DNA of 59,072 bases from Thermodesulfovibrionales bacterium (lineage in GTDB: Bacteria; Nitrospirota; Thermodesulfovibrionia; Thermodesulfovibrionales; Dissulfurispiraceae). Below, piece by piece: positions 32,314 to 40,084 of the stretch. Positions within the stretch are counted from its first letter, which is position 1. The number at the start of each line of letters is the position of its first letter. The notes under the pieces were generated by a model. That model had not been told where the DNA came from. It was given only the letters and a program-made list of their open reading frames with translations, and did not search any database. The stretch is from contig JAOAHE010000006.1 of the NCBI GenBank assembly GCA_026415415.1, positions 1 to 59,072 on the forward strand. Reading direction: 5' to 3'. The translations under genes were made by a program, and so were the position numbers.

Positions 32314-33702
32314 GTGAGCAAAGGCAAAATCTTAGTGATAGATGATAGTCCTATAGTACGTAAAATGGCCGAAGTTGCTTTAGAAGAAGAAGGATACGAG
32401 GTCTACACCGCAGAAGATGGTGAAGAGGGCCTTAAAATCACTGAAGAAGTTAAGCCTTCAATTATCTTAGTTGATTTTATAATGCCAAAGATGAGCGGCT
32501 ATCAATTTTGCCAAGCCATAAAAGAAAATGAATCTCTGAAGGACATACCTATTATTTTAATAACAGGAAAAGGGGAAGATGTTGGAAGAAAATTCTCAGA
32601 GAAATTCCAGGTATATGATTACTTTATTAAACCGTTTAAGAGTGCAGATTTAGTTGAAAAAGTTAATCAAATAATGAACTCTCAAAAAATGTTAGTAGAA
32701 GAGCCTCAACAGATTGAAACAGCTAAAGCAATCGAACCTGAGCCTATCACCTTTACTTTTGAAGAACAGCCAGTACCTGCCTCTTTTGAAGAAGAAGAAA
32801 CAGTACCATTACAGGACTTTACTCAACCTGAGCCTATCACTTTTACTTTTGAAGAACAGTCAGTGCCTACCTCTTTTGAAGAAGAAAAAAGCTTTTCTCA
32901 TTCCTTTGCAGAGACAGAAATACAAATTTTAACTTCACTAAATCAGCCTTCCCCTGTTATTGAACAAACCTTATCAAAAACATCTTCTGATGTAGAAGGG
33001 AAAATCACAATGGATAATTATATCTCAGAAATTGAAAAAATAGTCGAAAAATCAATGAAAAAATTCTTCTATGAAGACTATCAACCTAATCTTCAGAAAA
33101 ATATCACAGACATATTAAAAAAATCTGGCGTTATAAAAACCTCTAATATAGTATTATCGGGCAGTGTTGCTCAATTTCCAGTAAAAAATATTTTACTTCT
33201 TTCAGAAAAATTAAAACTCTCAGGTAAACTATCAATTTTATCAGACCAGATTAATTCCGATATATACTTAAAAGAGGGAAATATTATTGGAACATCATTT
33301 AACACAGAAAACATACAAACCTTAGACAACATTTACAATCATATAGCTTCTTTATTAGAGTTATCAGAAGGAAACTTCACGATAGAAAATATCCCCCTTG
33401 AAGAAGAGCCTAAAAGTCTTTCTTTGAATTTATCAATTACCGAGGCACTCTTAGAGACTTCTCGAAGAGTAAATGAATCACTATATTTAAATATAATCAA
33501 AGATAACTTAATCCCAATAAAAAAATTTAGTGATAAATTCATAAAAGATTTTAATCTTACCAAAAGCGAGTTACTCACCCTTGCCTGTATTAATGGGGAA
33601 AGAACAATAAATGATATTAATGACCTAACAGGTATAGAGAAAAATCTCTCTCATAGAATTTTCTTTACGTTATATAATCTTGATTTTGTTAATTTCTGTT
33701 AA
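32314..33702 (+). CDS. Receiver-PATAN (DUF4388) signalling protein with repeat linker
   Basis: 462 residues from a GTG start behind AAGGAGA. The receiver domain (1-125) has phospho-acceptor D54 in VDFIMPKMSG. The linker holds two near-identical 30-residue repeats (about 141-200; core EPEPITFTFEEQ-VP-SFEEE). From about 285 to 385 there is a PATAN/DUF4388-like domain (LSGSVAQFPVKNILLLSEKLKLSG), then a short helical C-terminus of winged-helix-like wording (LLTLACINGERTINDINDLTG). Such proteins accompany chemosensory-type arrays controlling motility or polysaccharide in deltaproteobacteria-like bacteria. It is the first gene of the cheY-cheW-cheA run. Its exact output is unknown. Confidence 0.82.
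   Translation: MSKGKILVIDDSPIVRKMAEVALEEEGYEVYTAEDGEEGLKITEEVKPSIILVDFIMPKMSGYQFCQAIKENESLKDIPIILITGKGEDVGRKFSEKFQVYDYFIKPFKSADLVEKVNQIMNSQKMLVEEPQQIETAKAIEPEPITFTFEEQPVPASFEEEETVPLQDFTQPEPITFTFEEQSVPTSFEEEKSFSHSFAETEIQILTSLNQPSPVIEQTLSKTSSDVEGKITMDNYISEIEKIVEKSMKKFFYEDYQPNLQKNITDILKKSGVIKTSNIVLSGSVAQFPVKNILLLSEKLKLSGKLSILSDQINSDIYLKEGNIIGTSFNTENIQTLDNIYNHIASLLELSEGNFTIENIPLEEEPKSLSLNLSITEALLETSRRVNESLYLNIIKDNLIPIKKFSDKFIKDFNLTKSELLTLACINGERTINDINDLTGIEKNLSHRIFFTLYNLDFVNFC
32737..32886 (+). repeat. Two 90-base in-frame tandem repeats
   Basis: Two copies starting at about 32737 and 32827 encode the 30-residue period PEPITFTFEEQ-VP-SFEEE within the linker. The copies differ at only a few positions, mostly third codon bases, which suggests a fairly recent duplication or ongoing homogenisation. 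Confidence 0.8.
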
Positions 33703-33716
33703 AATGGAGGTTTTAA

Positions 33717-34079
33717 ATGGCGAAAATATTAATCGCCGATGATAGTCAGACAGACGCTAAGTTCATAGAATCAGTCTTGGAGAAAACTGGCCATGATCTT
33801 TTTTTCGCCAAAGACGGTGAAGAAACAGAGAAGATGGTCAAAAATAATCGCTTTGACCTCATCATACTTGATGTAGTTATGCCTAAGAAAAACGGTTTTC
33901 AACTTTGTCGCGAGTTTAAAAAAGATGAAAAGACAAAACATATTCCTATAATAGTTTTAACATCTAAGAATCAAGAGAGTGATAAATTGTGGGGAACTAA
34001 GCAGGGAGCTGATGCATATATTACAAAACCATGTACACCTATTGAGCTACTTTCAACAGTAAAAAAATTTTTAGGGTGA
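33717..34079 (+). CDS. CheY-like single-domain response regulator
   Basis: 120 residues, a single receiver domain: acidic pair D8-D9, phospho-acceptor D52 in IILDVVMPKKNG, Thr in IVLTSKN and Lys in ITKPCTP. The PKKNGFQLCREFK wording is close to PilH/PilG-type regulators of twitching motility. It lies 14 bases after the REC-PATAN gene and 6 bases before cheW, so it is probably a phosphate acceptor of the CheA encoded downstream. Confidence 0.9.
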   Translation: MAKILIADDSQTDAKFIESVLEKTGHDLFFAKDGEETEKMVKNNRFDLIILDVVMPKKNGFQLCREFKKDEKTKHIPIIVLTSKNQESDKLWGTKQGADAYITKPCTPIELLSTVKKFLG

Positions 34080-34085
34080 TCCTGA

Positions 34086-34472
34086 ATGTCAAGAGATGAA
34101 GAACCTAAAGAGATAACATATTGTGTATTCAGAGTTGGAGAGAAAGAGTTTCTTTTACCAACTTCATCAGTTCGAGAAGTAGTAGACATAGTTAAAATTT
34201 TCCCTGTTCCCGGTTCTCCAGAATATGTATATGGAGCAATTCCTGTAAGAGGGAAGATCGTTCCAGCTATAGATCTTTCAAAGATATACCCCATAGAAAA
34301 ACCAAATTATAATGATGCTAAGTTAATTATTGTAGATGTAAAAAATGAAAATATAGGATTTCTTTCTGAGATTGCTCCATTTTTTATATCCTTTGATCCA
34401 GATATAGTAGTAGAAGATGTAATAGATATAAAAACCTTTTTTGAGACTTACTCAATTAAGCAACCTAAATAA
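34086..34472 (+). CDS. CheW-like coupling protein
   Basis: 128 residues of CheW fold: YCVFRVGEKEFLLPTSSVREVV, GSPEYVYGAIPVRGKIVPAIDLSKIY and a third beta segment. CheW links receptors to CheA. The second part is short and the C-terminal sequence ends soon after VEDVIDIKTFFETY. No methyl-accepting receptor gene is in the window, so its partner receptor must be elsewhere. It is followed 2 bases later by cheA. Confidence 0.9.
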   Translation: MSRDEEPKEITYCVFRVGEKEFLLPTSSVREVVDIVKIFPVPGSPEYVYGAIPVRGKIVPAIDLSKIYPIEKPNYNDAKLIIVDVKNENIGFLSEIAPFFISFDPDIVVEDVIDIKTFFETYSIKQPK

Positions 34473-34474
34473 TC

Positions 34475-36793
34475 ATGATTAACAAATCAGAACTGCTTGA
34501 ATACTTTCTATCTGAGGCTGAAGATCATGTCAATGCCCTTGAAAGTGGTATAGCAGAACTTTCAAACTCTCCCGAAAAATCATATCTTATAGAAGAACTT
34601 TTCAGAGTAGCCCATACCTTGAAAGGCTCTGCAGCCCTCGTGAAGCTAAACATCACCAGCAATATCGCTCATAAGATGGAAGATATCCTTGAAGCTTTAA
34701 TGCAGAAAAGAATTGATTTAAGTTCAACAATTTTTAAGTCTTTAACAGAGATGCTTGAAGGAATAAAAACGATACTTAGAAAAGTTTCAAGGGGAGCAGA
34801 AGAATACTTAGAATCTGAACAAAGCTTAATACAGTTAGCAGATAAAATAATAAAAATGGAAAAAACAGCCTTTGTTGATCAACAATCTCTTACAGAAACA
34901 GAATCCAAAAAAGGGCAAAGCGACTTTAAAGAAAGTCACAAAGTTGTGAAACCCTATTTGATAGATGAAAACAGAGAAAAAGAAGAAAAAATACATGAAG
35001 AAACAGATGTTTTTATTAGTAGCTTCATTAAATTAGATGCTCAAAGAATAGAAGACATGCTTAATCTGATAGGTGAAGTTACTATAAAGAAAAACTATCT
35101 TTTACAAAAGGCAAAAAACGTTCTTGAAACCTCTGACGAGATATTCTTCACAGGCAGGAGATTAATTAGAGAAGTCAATGAGTTTGCAGAAAGAAATGCT
35201 TATGCACTTCCTGAAAATGTAAAATACATTGATCCTCTTCTATCAGAATTTGGTGAACTTGAGTTTGATAGATACGACCAGATAAATGTTTTTTCAAGAA
35301 AATTACAAGAGATTACCAATGATATGTCAGAATCTTTAAGAGAGCTGAGCACCTTTTTTGACCTTTTCAGTGATAACCTAAAAAGTATGGATAGCATGCT
35401 AAAGATCTTAAAAGCAAATCTAACAGAATCCCGAATGGTAGACATAGGCATACTTTTCCAGAGATTCACTAAGCCTACCAAAGAGATAGCGAAGAAATAT
35501 AACAAAAAAGTAGAACTAAAAATAACAGGTGGTCTTACAAAAATTGATAGAGTAATCTTTGAGAGACTTTTCAGTCCTTTAATGCACTTGGTTATGAATG
35601 CAATAACTCACGGCATCGAAAGCTCTGAAGAAAGAATACAAAAAAACAAAAAACCAATTGGAACTCTTTCACTTTCAGCTCACAAAGAAGGGGGCATAGC
35701 TGTCATTGAGATAACAGATGATGGTAAAGGTATTGATTTAGAATTAATTCGCAGAGAAGCTATGACCCAAGGCCTCCTTAAAAAAGATGATTCTCCCTCA
35801 GAAGAAGAACTAATTCAAATGATATTCATCCCTGGTTTTTCAACATCAGAAGTTACAGATATATCAGCTGGTAGGGGCATGGGGATGAGTGCAGTTAAAA
35901 GAATGGTTTCAGGTATAAACGGCATCTTAGAAGTTCAAACTATAAAAGATGTTGGTACTACTTTTAAAATAAAAGTACCTCTTTCTCTTGCTATCTCAAA
36001 TGTTTTGCTCTTCCGATCGGGGGCTCTTGAGTTTGTAATACCTTCAAATTTTATTGAGGAGGTAATTCACACTAATTCTATCCCATCTGACGACACAATC
36101 GTATACAGAGACAAAAAAATTATCCTTATTAATCTTTCCGAAGTATTAGGTATCCCAACAATCTCTGACTCACAAGAAAAATTTATAATAATTTGTAGTG
36201 TCTCAGACAAAAAAATTGGGTTAATTGTTGAAGATGTGATAGGACAAGAAGAAACAGTAATTAAAACAATGCATGGCTTCTTAGAGGGATTACAAATATA
36301 TTCTGGTACTACTATATCAGGTGATGGAACAATTAGATTTGTATTAAACCCAGTTAATATCTTTGATTTTAGGTTAAGTCCTTTTAAAACAATTTATCAG
36401 GTCTATGAAAACCCTGCTAAGAAAACTGTTTTAATAGTAGATGACTCAGTTAGCGTTAGGAAACATGTTAGTTCCTTCTTGGAGTCAAAAAACTTTAAAG
36501 TATACTCAGCATCCAATGGTGTCGAAGGGTTAAATATTTTATATGATAAACCCATTGATATAATAATTACAGACTTGGAGATGCCCGTAATGCATGGCTA
36601 TGAGCTTATAAACAGGGTCAAATCATCAAGAGAATTCAAAGATATCCCCATTGTTGTTTTAACCTCAAGAAGCGGAGATAAGCATAGAGAAAAAGCTTTG
36701 CTTTTTGGAGTAAATGACTACCTTGTTAAACCTTTTGATGAGGAGTCCTTACTGAATATATTAAGAAAATACTTTGAAATCAGTTATGCATAA
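34475..36793 (+). CDS. Hybrid CheA kinase with C-terminal receiver (FrzE/PilL-like)
   Basis: 772 residues: Hpt domain (1-115) with phospho-acceptor H47 in AHTLKGSA, a linker and dimerisation region (about 185-310), HATPase with the N-box HLVMNAITHGIE, the DDGKGID site and GRGMGMSAVKRM, a CheW-like domain (about 505-640), and a C-terminal receiver (about 650-770; acceptor Asp in IIITDLEMPVMHG). CheA phosphorylates CheY-like regulators; the fused receiver may act as phosphate sink or branch point. The P2 CheY-binding domain is not obvious. It closes the chemosensory cluster and converges with the kinase-like gene on the other strand after 5 bases. Confidence 0.93.
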   Translation: MINKSELLEYFLSEAEDHVNALESGIAELSNSPEKSYLIEELFRVAHTLKGSAALVKLNITSNIAHKMEDILEALMQKRIDLSSTIFKSLTEMLEGIKTILRKVSRGAEEYLESEQSLIQLADKIIKMEKTAFVDQQSLTETESKKGQSDFKESHKVVKPYLIDENREKEEKIHEETDVFISSFIKLDAQRIEDMLNLIGEVTIKKNYLLQKAKNVLETSDEIFFTGRRLIREVNEFAERNAYALPENVKYIDPLLSEFGELEFDRYDQINVFSRKLQEITNDMSESLRELSTFFDLFSDNLKSMDSMLKILKANLTESRMVDIGILFQRFTKPTKEIAKKYNKKVELKITGGLTKIDRVIFERLFSPLMHLVMNAITHGIESSEERIQKNKKPIGTLSLSAHKEGGIAVIEITDDGKGIDLELIRREAMTQGLLKKDDSPSEEELIQMIFIPGFSTSEVTDISAGRGMGMSAVKRMVSGINGILEVQTIKDVGTTFKIKVPLSLAISNVLLFRSGALEFVIPSNFIEEVIHTNSIPSDDTIVYRDKKIILINLSEVLGIPTISDSQEKFIIICSVSDKKIGLIVEDVIGQEETVIKTMHGFLEGLQIYSGTTISGDGTIRFVLNPVNIFDFRLSPFKTIYQVYENPAKKTVLIVDDSVSVRKHVSSFLESKNFKVYSASNGVEGLNILYDKPIDIIITDLEMPVMHGYELINRVKSSREFKDIPIVVLTSRSGDKHREKALLFGVNDYLVKPFDEESLLNILRKYFEISYA

Positions 36794-36798
36794 TAACT

Positions 36799-38343
36799 TC
36801 ACTTCTGAGGTTTCCACCTAACAGGAAATATCATCTTTACAGTAGTTCCTTTGCCAAGTTCACTTTCTATCTTTAACTCACCAAGATGTTCATTAACAAT
36901 CTGCTTAACTAATGGCAATCCCATTCCAAATCTTAACTCCTTTGTGCTGAAGAAAGGATCAAATATCTTTTCAAGATTTTCTTTATGGATACCTCTTCCT
37001 GTATCCATTATAGACAAAATAATTTGTTCTGATTGTTGCTCTGTAGTTATAGTGATAATGCCTCCAGGAGGGGTTGCTTCTATAGAGTTTCTAATTACGT
37101 GATAAATCGCTGCTTTTAATAGGTTTCTTTGAAGATTGATCCTCATAGGTTGTGATGAAAGCCTTAGTTCTAATTGTATCTGCTTTTCTGTTAATTCTTG
37201 CTCTAAAATATAAATTATAGAGTTTATTAGTTCATTAAGGTCTGCATACTCAAAAACATTTTGTCGGCTCTTTAAAAGATTTTCAAACTCTCCAACTATA
37301 GTCTCAAGTTTTTTACATTCATCTATTATATCCATCAAATCTCTATTTAGTTTCTCCTCTTTTTTTACGATCCTTTTACAAAGTGCTCCTATAAGGACAG
37401 CTGGATTTCTTACTTTATCTGCAACTGTAAGACCCATAAGAGCCATGGTCCTTTCAGCTACAAGAGTCTCTAACTCTCTGTTCAATTGAATAAGATCTAA
37501 ATTAACTCTTTGTAATTTATTTTCTTCATCTTGAATTCTTAAGTATGACTTATACACCATTAAAAAAAACAAACTGACAAAACCTATCCAGAAAAAGAAA
37601 ATTGTATTAATACTGCCTATAAAAGGCTTAAAAATCTCCCAGTACTCACCTTCTCCACTTGAAATAAGAAAATGTTGTAAAAAATATGCAAACATTCTTG
37701 AAATAGAGTAAGCAAAAAAGGATGACGAGAACCATATCATATAATTCCACATAACATTATCTTTATCCTTCTTATATAGAGAGATGCTTTGATGTAAACA
37801 AAGAGAAGATAATATTACAAAAACAATACTACCAACAATTTGAGTAAGAAAAATAGGAAAATAAGGTACAATGAAAAGAAAAGGCAAAAGTGTTTCCTGT
37901 TTTTTCTCCAATTTATCAGCTATTTGATTCTTTAAGAAAAGATAATAAAAAAGCATTCCAGCATCAAGCACTAAAAAATCAAACCTTGTTATTAAAAATA
38001 AATAATCTATTGGATTATCAATTAGTATTACCCTTTTAAAATACTCAAAACCTTCTTTTGAACCTAATAATGTAAAATCTTTAAATCGTCCTAAAAACAC
38101 CATCACATCCCATAAAGCAAATAGTATTATAGCTATCAAAAAATTAACCCATTGTTTTTCCTTAAGGAGATTAAACCGATAGATATAAATTGCTATAATC
38201 ATCATAGCAATAAAGAAGAAAACTCTACCTGTTGTGTGTATATAAATAGCTGGATAATCATGAGGGAGAAAGAAAGCCAAAACGTCAGCAGGTGATAAAA
38301 TTAAAAAAATAGCTAAAATAAAATAGATAAAAAAATTATGCAT
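36799..38343 (-). CDS. Membrane histidine-kinase-like protein without the phospho-acceptor His
   Basis: 514 residues: an N-terminal domain of about seven membrane helices (near 5-20, 38-57, 68-85, 110-138, 155-185, 200-225, 245-265), a coiled segment (270-300), a HisKA-like helix, and an apparently complete HATPase domain (N419 in VIRNSIEAT, DTGRGI near 447-452, FDPFFSTKE, GMGLPLVK near 473-480). In the dimerisation helix the usual AHEIRNP motif reads ADKVRNP (308-314), so Asp309 stands where His is expected. The ATP site looks intact, but autophosphorylation on that helix does not. It may act by a partner kinase or as a pseudokinase. It overlaps the VTT gene by 8 bases. Confidence 0.85.
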   Translation of the reverse strand: MHNFFIYFILAIFLILSPADVLAFFLPHDYPAIYIHTTGRVFFFIAMMIIAIYIYRFNLLKEKQWVNFLIAIILFALWDVMVFLGRFKDFTLLGSKEGFEYFKRVILIDNPIDYLFLITRFDFLVLDAGMLFYYLFLKNQIADKLEKKQETLLPFLFIVPYFPIFLTQIVGSIVFVILSSLCLHQSISLYKKDKDNVMWNYMIWFSSSFFAYSISRMFAYFLQHFLISSGEGEYWEIFKPFIGSINTIFFFWIGFVSLFFLMVYKSYLRIQDEENKLQRVNLDLIQLNRELETLVAERTMALMGLTVADKVRNPAVLIGALCKRIVKKEEKLNRDLMDIIDECKKLETIVGEFENLLKSRQNVFEYADLNELINSIIYILEQELTEKQIQLELRLSSQPMRINLQRNLLKAAIYHVIRNSIEATPPGGIITITTEQQSEQIILSIMDTGRGIHKENLEKIFDPFFSTKELRFGMGLPLVKQIVNEHLGELKIESELGKGTTVKMIFPVRWKPQK

Positions 38344-39028
38344 TTAGTTTTCTTCTTTTTTCTCTTTTTTTCCTATATTTACTTATATGCCAAAGTCTAA
38401 AAACCCTCTCAATCTTATCTTTATAAGCATAAGCAATTAAAATAAATAAAAGGGCAATCCCTGTCAAGATAAAAAACTTATAATATTCTTGATTTCTTAA
38501 ATAATCACCTCCTAAAGTCAACATGACCGTTCCCAATAATCTGCCTGTTCCACCTATTATTAAAAACTCAGAGGTTGACAGATGCCCTAATCCTAAAATA
38601 TAACACAAATAGTCCTTTGGAAAGCCTGGAATCAAAAACATTAAAAAAACAATAAATGCTCCCTTGTGATGAAGCAGATAATCAAACCTCGCAAGAGTGG
38701 CTGGACTTACTACCTTCTCTACAAAAGGCCTACCTAACTTTCTTGATAAAGTAAAAGCTATAAAAGATCCTATTGTCAAGCCAATAGTTGACAATACAAC
38801 TCCTAAGAGTTTTCCGAAAACATAGCCACCAAGTAATCCAGTGACCTCTCCTGGTACAGGGGCAGCCACTACTTGAGAAGCCTGTAAAAGGATAAAGCCT
38901 AAGAAAGCAAGAGGCCCTAAATCATCCAAAAACTTAAGAAGCCTATCCTTATCTAAAAAAAAGTGAAAAATGCCAAGTTTATAAAATATAAAAGTAACAC
39001 CAAAAATTAAAAAGATAAGAATAAGCAA
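38336..39028 (-). CDS. TVP38/TMEM64 (VTT, DedA-like) membrane protein
   Basis: 230 residues with several membrane segments. The re-entrant region QVVAAPVPGEVTGLLGGYVFG and the later FVEKVVSPATLARFDYLL and FLMFLIPGFPKDYLCYILGL match the VTT/SNARE-associated family, linked in general to membrane lipid or undecaprenyl-phosphate translocation. A basic tail ends the protein (KYRKKREKRRKL). It sits between a slipin gene and the kinase-like gene, all on the minus strand, suggesting a joint membrane-related task. Confidence 0.85.
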   Translation of the reverse strand: MLILIFLIFGVTFIFYKLGIFHFFLDKDRLLKFLDDLGPLAFLGFILLQASQVVAAPVPGEVTGLLGGYVFGKLLGVVLSTIGLTIGSFIAFTLSRKLGRPFVEKVVSPATLARFDYLLHHKGAFIVFLMFLIPGFPKDYLCYILGLGHLSTSEFLIIGGTGRLLGTVMLTLGGDYLRNQEYYKFFILTGIALLFILIAYAYKDKIERVFRLWHISKYRKKREKRRKLNA

Positions 39029-39077: not shown

Positions 39078-39839
39078 CTATTTTAAATTTTCTTTGAGAA
39101 AAACTTTTAATAAATCTATTGGTACAGGAAAAACGATAGTTGAGTTTTTTTCAGTTGCTATCTCAGTTAAAGTCTGAAGAAACCTTAATTGGAGTGTAGC
39201 TGGCTCAGATTGAATTATTCTTGCTGCATCAGCAAGTTTTTGAGCTGCCTGCAGTTCGCCTTCAGCATGAATAATTTTAGCTCTCCTTTCTCTTTCAGCC
39301 TCAGCTTGCTTGGCAATAGCTCTAAGCATCTCACTTGGGAGATCTACATTTTTTACCTCAACTGCTGTAACTTTTATACCCCATGGTTCGGTTTGTTGAT
39401 CAATAACTTTTTGAAGTTCTGAATTTAGTTGCTCTCTGTTAGCCAATAGCTCATCAAGTTGGCTTTGTCCAATAATACTCCTTAAAGTAGTTTGCGCAAT
39501 TTGGGAAGTGGCAAAATAATAATCTTCTACCTCTGTTATAGCTTTAATAGGGTCTATTGGTCGGAAGTAGACAACAGCATTGACTTTAACTGTTATATTA
39601 TCCCTTGTAATTATATCTTGAGGGGGAACATCCATAGTAATAGTACGTAGGCTAACTTTGACCATCTTGTCTATAATAGGCCATATGATTACTAACCCAG
39701 GACCTTTAAGAGGAATCACTCTGCCAAGTCTAAATACCACACCTCTTTCATACTCTTTTAAAATTTTTATAGCGCTTGAAAGGAAATATATAATCAAAAT
39801 AATGAGAAAAACAAAAGATAAGAAAGACGTTTGAAACAT
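39078..39839 (-). CDS. Slipin (stomatin/SPFH family protein)
   Basis: 253 residues from the ATG at 39837-39839, which has a strong AGAGGGGG site upstream; an open frame reaches 24 codons further but lacks a ribosome site and family similarity. One N-terminal membrane segment (about 7-25) is followed by an SPFH domain with [24 protein letters not shown] and the [17 protein letters not shown] pattern, then a helical region ([20 protein letters not shown]). Slipins form membrane microdomain scaffolds. An adjacent NfeD partner, common for slipins, is absent; the VTT protein gene follows instead. Confidence 0.93.
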
Positions 39840-40084
39840 AATACCCCCTCTCTTACTGAAATAATTTAAAGATAATTTTATTATAATATAAATAAAAGAT
39901 TTTAATATCAATCAAACAAAAGCTTGCTAATCTAAATCCTTCTCTATCTTTATTACGGTGCTACTACTTTTTAAAGACGAACACTAAAAGGTCCTTTCAT
40001 TGTAAAAACCTCTAAAATTAAAGAAGCCTTTACCCTTCTCCTCTGTAAGTGGCATTTTAATAAATTAATTATATATTGGATATT

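Follow-up and report, generated by a model that had tools for sequence, protein, structure and literature searches.

Pseudo-histidine kinases, proteins with the domain organization of a sensor histidine kinase but with another residue in place of the phosphoacceptor His, have hitherto been known mainly from DivL. Among ordinary kinases, ZraS and AtoS are partnered with NtrC-type response regulators. The contributions of individual residues to the two opposing activities of such proteins have been dissected in CrdS, a member of the HisKA family, in which the H371A and E372A replacements abolished the kinase activity and preserved the phosphatase activity, while N375A, at position +4 from the acceptor His (H+4), led to the loss of the phosphatase activity only (PMC3510030). 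In other phosphatases, CheZ and NarX, a DxxxQ motif is used (PMC3510030). DrBphP, which contains His residues at both the H+1 position and the N-box Asn site, is a dedicated ATP-dependent phosphatase (PMC8292422). The locus described here encodes a membrane protein with Asp in the acceptor position.

An Asp residue in place of the phosphoacceptor His

The window, i.e., the whole analyzed stretch of 59,072 nucleotides, contains the following features of the gene in question and its product.

36799..38343, minus strand: gene for the Asp-type pseudo-histidine kinase, 514 aa, comprising a 7-TM sensor, DHp, and CA (from the ORF, its translation, Pfam, AF2, and Foldseek)
37519..38343, minus strand: N-terminal membrane domain, residues 1-275, about seven helices (AF2 and a 14-member alignment)
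37255..37491, minus strand: DHp-like two-helix region without His, residues 285-363 (AF2 helices, His positions, and alignment)
37402..37422, minus strand: pseudo H-box ADKVRNP, residues 308-314 (conservation in the same-phylum family)
37405-37407, minus strand: codon for Asn313 (H+4), part of the pseudo H-box
37087..37101, minus strand: altered N-box with His415 replacing the first Asn and Asn419 kept (family compared with ordinary kinases)
36988..37005, minus strand: G1 box DTGRGI, residues 447-452 (DxGxG in 73 of 73 family members)
36916..36927, minus strand: G2 box GMGL, residues 473-476 (GxG in 71 of 73 family members)

The acceptor site is occupied by Asp309, encoded by a GAT codon at 37417-37419, in the sequence LTVADKVRNPAVLIG (LTVA-D309-K-V-R-N313-P), and the H+1 position by Lys310, which leaves it without an acidic residue. 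The preliminary description of this gene had noted the replacement of the acceptor His, which holds at the codon level, and described the ATP-binding boxes as seemingly complete. This is true of G1 and G2 but not of the N-box, which reads HVIRN and retains only the second of its Asn residues. All eight His residues of the protein (at positions 2, 28, 36, 184, 224, 415, 453, and 486) lie outside the DHp helices.

Pfam searches with this protein returned the HATPase_c domain (E = 1.3e-21) and no match to HisKA; HisKA_3 and CheZ matched neither it nor other members of its family. The top NCBIfam profiles were those of AtoS and ZraS, with scores far under their cutoffs. The AF2 model (mean pLDDT of 82.5, pTM of 0.62) consists of the previously proposed membrane domain of about seven helices, a DHp hairpin, and a CA domain; in Foldseek searches with this model, ZraS (9jfj) ranked first and was the best solved match, and DivL, HK853-RR468, and LvrB were also returned. 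The 7-TM domain has no assigned Pfam family and, taken alone, gave no match with E below 0.001 in a fold search of the PDB. In the alignment of 14 members, its mature start motif is found near FLPHDYPAIYxH.

Distribution and conservation of the Asp-type family

Searches over the relatives, the order, and the phylum produced a set of 73 same-phylum homologs, which were fetched together with their gene contexts. Family members were well separated from ordinary kinases, scoring at least 282 bits in the order search, compared with at most 184 bits for the latter. Asp in the acceptor position, Arg at +3, and Pro at +5 are present in all 73 sequences and Asn at +4 in 72, the exception being L214 with Gly. 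The +1 position is held by Arg in 44 members, Lys in 24, Asn and Ser in 2 each, and Gln in 1 (Lys or Arg in 68 of 73, an acidic residue in none), whereas the ordinary kinases in the same alignment have His as the acceptor in 105 cases and Glu or Asp at +1 in 101. Similarly, the N-box starts with His in 64 of 73 family members and with Asn in 104 of 106 ordinary kinases. The mean column identity in the family is 57%, conservation within the DHp region peaks at the H-box, and in the first 120 alignment columns no alternative His column reaches 20%. The G2 glycines are missing only in L098 and L099 (L141 and L142), whose degenerate G2 box, GERLRMAMPLV, is still found within a slipin-VTT operon (see below); these two proteins may be unable to bind ATP.

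The occurrence of Asp in 73 of 73 homologs greatly exceeds chance expectation, and a one-off mutation or a sequencing error can be ruled out, as can an alternative acceptor His, given the lack of His in the DHp region of the window protein and of any conserved His column. All 73 members form a single clade with a support of 1.0, which becomes 0.96 when the H, H+1, and N-box columns are masked. The Asp-type pseudo-histidine kinases are a real family, and ADKVRNP is one version of its conserved motif. Pfam matches of the homologs to HisKA reach at most 26.6 bits against the cutoff of 26.9 bits, except for L134, in which the 40.7-bit match belongs to a fused canonical kinase. Neither Pfam nor NCBIfam contains a curated model that matches this family, and no earlier description of it was found in open-license PMC papers, although one may exist elsewhere. 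Such proteins are easily labeled "sensor histidine kinase," which calls for caution with their annotation.

The phylum search suggested that the family was confined to one phylum, which was refuted by matches from a second one. One further member, L228, came from a control search that covered 46 genomes, those behind loci that were for the most part of other phyla, and 24 of the 297 genomes searched in the phylum of L228 gave matches. The 30 second-phylum sequences read have at the acceptor site either Asp (14 sequences, with ADK, ADR, and ADG) or His (16 sequences, with AHG, AHE, AHD, AHK, and AHQ) and nothing else; the N-box His is present in all 30. The normal His, retained by none of the 73 same-phylum homologs, is therefore kept by a part of this more distant sister group, so Asp is probably the derived state. 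In the extended family of 103 sequences from both phyla, sampled with a profile built from Asp-type members that may miss remote His-type relatives, the acceptor site contains Asp in 87 cases, His in 16, and no third residue. Asn, Tyr, and Gln are mutationally as close and yet are absent from this site in both phyla. After masking of the H, H+1, and N-box columns, trees from FastTree and from a fast run of iqtree indicate at least two or three switches between His and Asp; the deep nodes have weak support, and the trees do not fix the direction of every switch. The altered N-box and the lost H+1 acid are also seen in members that retain His. Judging from these sequences, the restriction of the acceptor site to Asp and His, along with the repeated switches, suggests selection for the acid rather than drift.

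In the second phylum, paralogs with AHGIRNP (L240-type) and ADGIRNP (L239-type) are sometimes encoded in one genome (G637, G445, and G658), which offers a natural comparison of the His and Asp versions. With sister proteins that have either His or Asp at this one site, it can be examined which residues are responsible for the conversion of a bifunctional kinase/phosphatase to an enzyme that works in one direction.

Sensor modules and gene neighborhoods

The Asp-type transmitter is combined with a variety of modules: the 7-TM domain (in the window protein and its orthologs), Tll0287-like, Cache-HAMP, HAMP, ABC_sub_bind-like, triple PAS, REC, and REC-PAS. An N-terminal region in second-phylum members resembles RsbT by eye and has no Pfam match. 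All 18 REC domains retain the acidic pair, the phosphoacceptor Asp, and the Thr and Lys residues; genes for the REC-type pseudokinases are often located 3' of a PAS hybrid kinase gene, with 4-bp overlaps. The L091/L134 protein (L091/L134:5955-8882) is a natural 975-aa fusion in which a 7-TM Asp-type pseudokinase is joined to PAS and to a canonical HisKA kinase with the motif AHDMKNP; this hints directly at partnering with an active kinase. In several genomes, the 7-TM domain is split over two overlapping or adjacent genes, the first coding for helices 1-3 and the second for helices 4-7 and the transmitter. In both phyla, the break is located in the loop that follows helix 3 (L144:6932-8520, L212, L216, and L268).

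Two genes lie directly upstream of the pseudokinase gene in the window.

38336..39028, minus strand: VTT-domain (DedA/TVP38-type) membrane protein (Pfam VTT_dom, 2.4e-21)
39078..39911, minus strand: slipin (Band_7/SPFH; Pfam Band_7, 5.3e-40)

The VTT gene and the start of the pseudokinase gene share 8 bp, and a gap of 49 bp separates the VTT gene from the slipin gene upstream of it. A slipin gene is found upstream of the pseudokinase in 17 genomes and a VTT gene in 13 of those: the window genome and G002, G006, G007, G014, G017, G019, G020, G034, G039, G055, G074 (for which only VTT is seen in the part of the contig that was read), and G079. In four further loci (L144, L212, L216, and L217), NfeD-slipin directly precedes a split pseudokinase, and the gene order NfeD-slipin-VTT-pseudokinase is seen in L149, L152, and L201. 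Three slipin/VTT-linked members (one recognized by Pfam, two by the N-terminal sequence) have a Tll0287-type sensor in place of the 7-TM domain, so this neighborhood does not follow the sensor alone. The slipin-VTT pair is itself widespread in the relatives. The association of the pseudokinase with this pair is real but not obligatory, since 18 of the 27 relatives that have this VTT lack an adjacent pseudokinase; conversely, a slipin gene is absent from the vicinity of most family members, which are of the REC, PAS, Cache, and other types. The operon of slipin, VTT, and pseudokinase contains no response regulator gene.

On its other side, the pseudokinase gene is 5 bp away from the end of a compact, convergently transcribed chemosensory cluster (32314-36793) that codes for a long REC protein, CheY-like and CheW-like proteins, and a CheA with a C-terminal REC. 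Of the two connections proposed in the preliminary description, that to slipin/VTT is supported as a conserved gene neighborhood in 17 genomes. The functional link to the CheA/CheW/CheY cluster was rejected, as the cluster is convergent and is not conserved next to the homologs; its location is incidental. Most slipin-linked relatives face instead a conserved c1-c4-c5 gene cluster (fabH/plsX/YceD-like by eye). In the second phylum, Asp-type members are encoded last in operons of PAS-STAS, STAS, and RsbT-like proteins, some of which are preceded by genes for a PilS-like kinase and a sigma-54 response regulator, and many 7-TM members are located 3' of an era-like gene (by eye), lnt, and corC. 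The L290, L294, L296, L283, and L289 loci, in which an Asp-type pseudokinase accompanies PAS-STAS, STAS, and RsbT-like ATPases, look like a connection from a stressosome to a two-component system.

Predicted function and comparison with known systems

Three separate autokinase determinants have been lost together family-wide, and the autokinase activity itself has very likely been lost, in agreement with the earlier suggestion of a nonphosphorylating pseudokinase. By the assignments of the published HisKA mutagenesis, the residues needed for the autokinase activity are gone and the phosphatase residue, the H+4 Asn, is kept. The window protein would be an autokinase-dead, signal-gated response regulator phosphatase that uses D309-xxx-N313, a reading to which we assign a probability of about 0.48. 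No other single function is as probable as phosphatase activity as such, which we put at about one half and propose with moderate confidence; the D309/N313 dyad is a tentative assignment made by analogy. The 7-TM domain would take in a membrane or periplasmic signal and set the conformation of the DHp-CA dimer, which would bind ATP/ADP and be unable to phosphorylate itself. Asp309 and Asn313 would share a face of DHp helix 1, the docking side for the response regulator, and could act as a signal-gated phosphatase on a phosphorylated regulator, probably of the NtrC/ZraR type, with Asn313 positioning the water and Asp309 serving as the acidic partner, as in the DxxxQ motifs of CheZ and NarX. At the window locus, this activity would be tied to the slipin and VTT membrane proteins encoded upstream. 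Such acid/amide spacing would explain the presence of Asp, and of nothing else apart from His, at the acceptor site. This reading is favored by ZraS and AtoS, with their NtrC-type partners, being the closest solved and curated relatives, by the PilS-like kinase and sigma-54 regulator genes that adjoin some Asp-type members, and by the complete set of REC residues (18 of 18) in others.

HisKA-type phosphatases have Thr or Asn at H+4, as do 72 of the 73 family members, and the retention of this Asn makes a phosphatase somewhat likelier than conformational signaling. Several observations count against it. With no response regulator gene in the operon, there is no candidate target there; Gly replaces the H+4 Asn in L214, and two members lack the G2 glycines. 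HisKA phosphatases require only the Thr/Asn residue and no acid (Willett and Kirby, PMC3510030), which argues against a role for Asp309. An Asn introduced at H+4 of DrBphP gave no phosphatase activity (PMC8292422), and the H610A variant of PleC, as cited in PMC3510030, lost both activities. Finally, Asn at +4 and Pro at +5 could be retained merely for helix geometry. It is a further and less probable step to regard the entire two-phylum set as sensor phosphatases in which Asp at the acceptor site created a CheZ/NarX-like DxxxN in a HisKA scaffold that spread over many inputs, with one branch serving slipin/VTT complexes.

The phosphatase reading has its main rival in a DivL-like pseudokinase that senses phosphorylated regulators; here, the DHp-CA module would bind a phosphorylated regulator or a canonical kinase and relay its state by conformation, with neither enzymatic activity. 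DivL itself, with Tyr in place of His, operates in this way (PMC4211667) and was matched in both the Foldseek and the profile searches; the REC-pseudokinase genes that trail a PAS hybrid kinase, the L091/L134 fusion, and the two members with lost G2 glycines, in which nucleotide use may be dispensable, all fit this model. However, DivL homologs contain Tyr or Ala, whereas this family is invariantly acidic within its phylum, the H+4 Asn is retained beyond what scaffolding alone demands, and the conservation of G1 and G2 (71 to 73 of 73) favors a nucleotide-dependent function. We consider this model less likely than the phosphatase, though it is the strongest of the alternatives.

Considerably less probable is an ATP-driven conformational switch that would act directly on slipin/VTT (and NfeD) complexes without response regulators, an idea close to that of the preliminary description. 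The slipin and VTT neighborhood in 17 and 13 genomes, which includes members with the Tll0287-like sensor, is in its favor, but the VTT proteins without an adjacent pseudokinase and the majority of members without a slipin nearby are not, and DHp conservation is highest at the H-box, the part that faces the response regulator in other kinases.

Even more remote is the persistence of kinase activity, either with a different acceptor residue or directed at a partner protein, as by the GHKL protein kinases proposed for archaeal proteins that lack the H-box. The ATP site is conserved, and some second-phylum members are encoded within RsbR/S/T-like operons, in which GHKL kinases phosphorylate STAS proteins. 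RdmS of Methanosarcina acetivorans, which has no H-box, binds and hydrolyzes ATP but showed no autokinase activity (PMC11784639). The family has lost both the H+1 base and the N-box Asn, on which phosphoryl transfer depends, and no conserved His column has taken over. A decaying, pseudogene-like kinase without a selected function, for which a truncated copy with an internal stop (G008) and the degenerate G2 box in two members could be cited, is refuted at the family level by the 57% identity, the invariant motif, the many domain fusions, and the presence in two phyla.

The combination of an invariant Asp, an intact ATP site, and the phosphatase Asn suggests that giving up autophosphorylation can be a stable design that is used with many sensors. 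Among the known systems, kinases of the ZraS/AtoS/NtrB type share with the family the DHp-CA fold, the RNP after the H-box, and the G1 and G2 boxes, but the acceptor His, the H+1 acid, and the first N-box Asn are all replaced in the family. The LvrB-type Rec-controlled histidine kinases (PMC13269768) have the same REC-DHp-CA architecture as the REC-type members, with a phosphorylatable His161 where the latter have Asp. The window pseudokinase gene, together with those for slipin and VTT, belongs to the NfeD-slipin (stomatin operon) neighborhood. DivL of Caulobacter (PMC4211667) resembles the family in its kinase-like DHp-CA module, conserved non-His residue in the acceptor position, and intact CA domain; in contrast to DivL, the family has Asp rather than Tyr, keeps the H+4 Asn, and includes REC and 7-TM fusions. 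The profile match to DivL is 87 bits versus 156 bits for ZraS, and the trees were built without DivL. The DxxxQ proteins CheZ and NarX (HisKA_3) belong to different families and have Gln instead of Asn, and their acid does not occupy the His position itself; the common feature is the acid-x-x-x-amide (i, i+4) spacing on one helix face, here D309/N313. DrBphP (PMC8292422) differs from the family in keeping the acceptor His, in having Glu at H+4, and in its sensor, but it has likewise lost both the H+1 acid and the first N-box Asn and is a phosphatase without kinase activity, which is what we predict for the Asp-type proteins.
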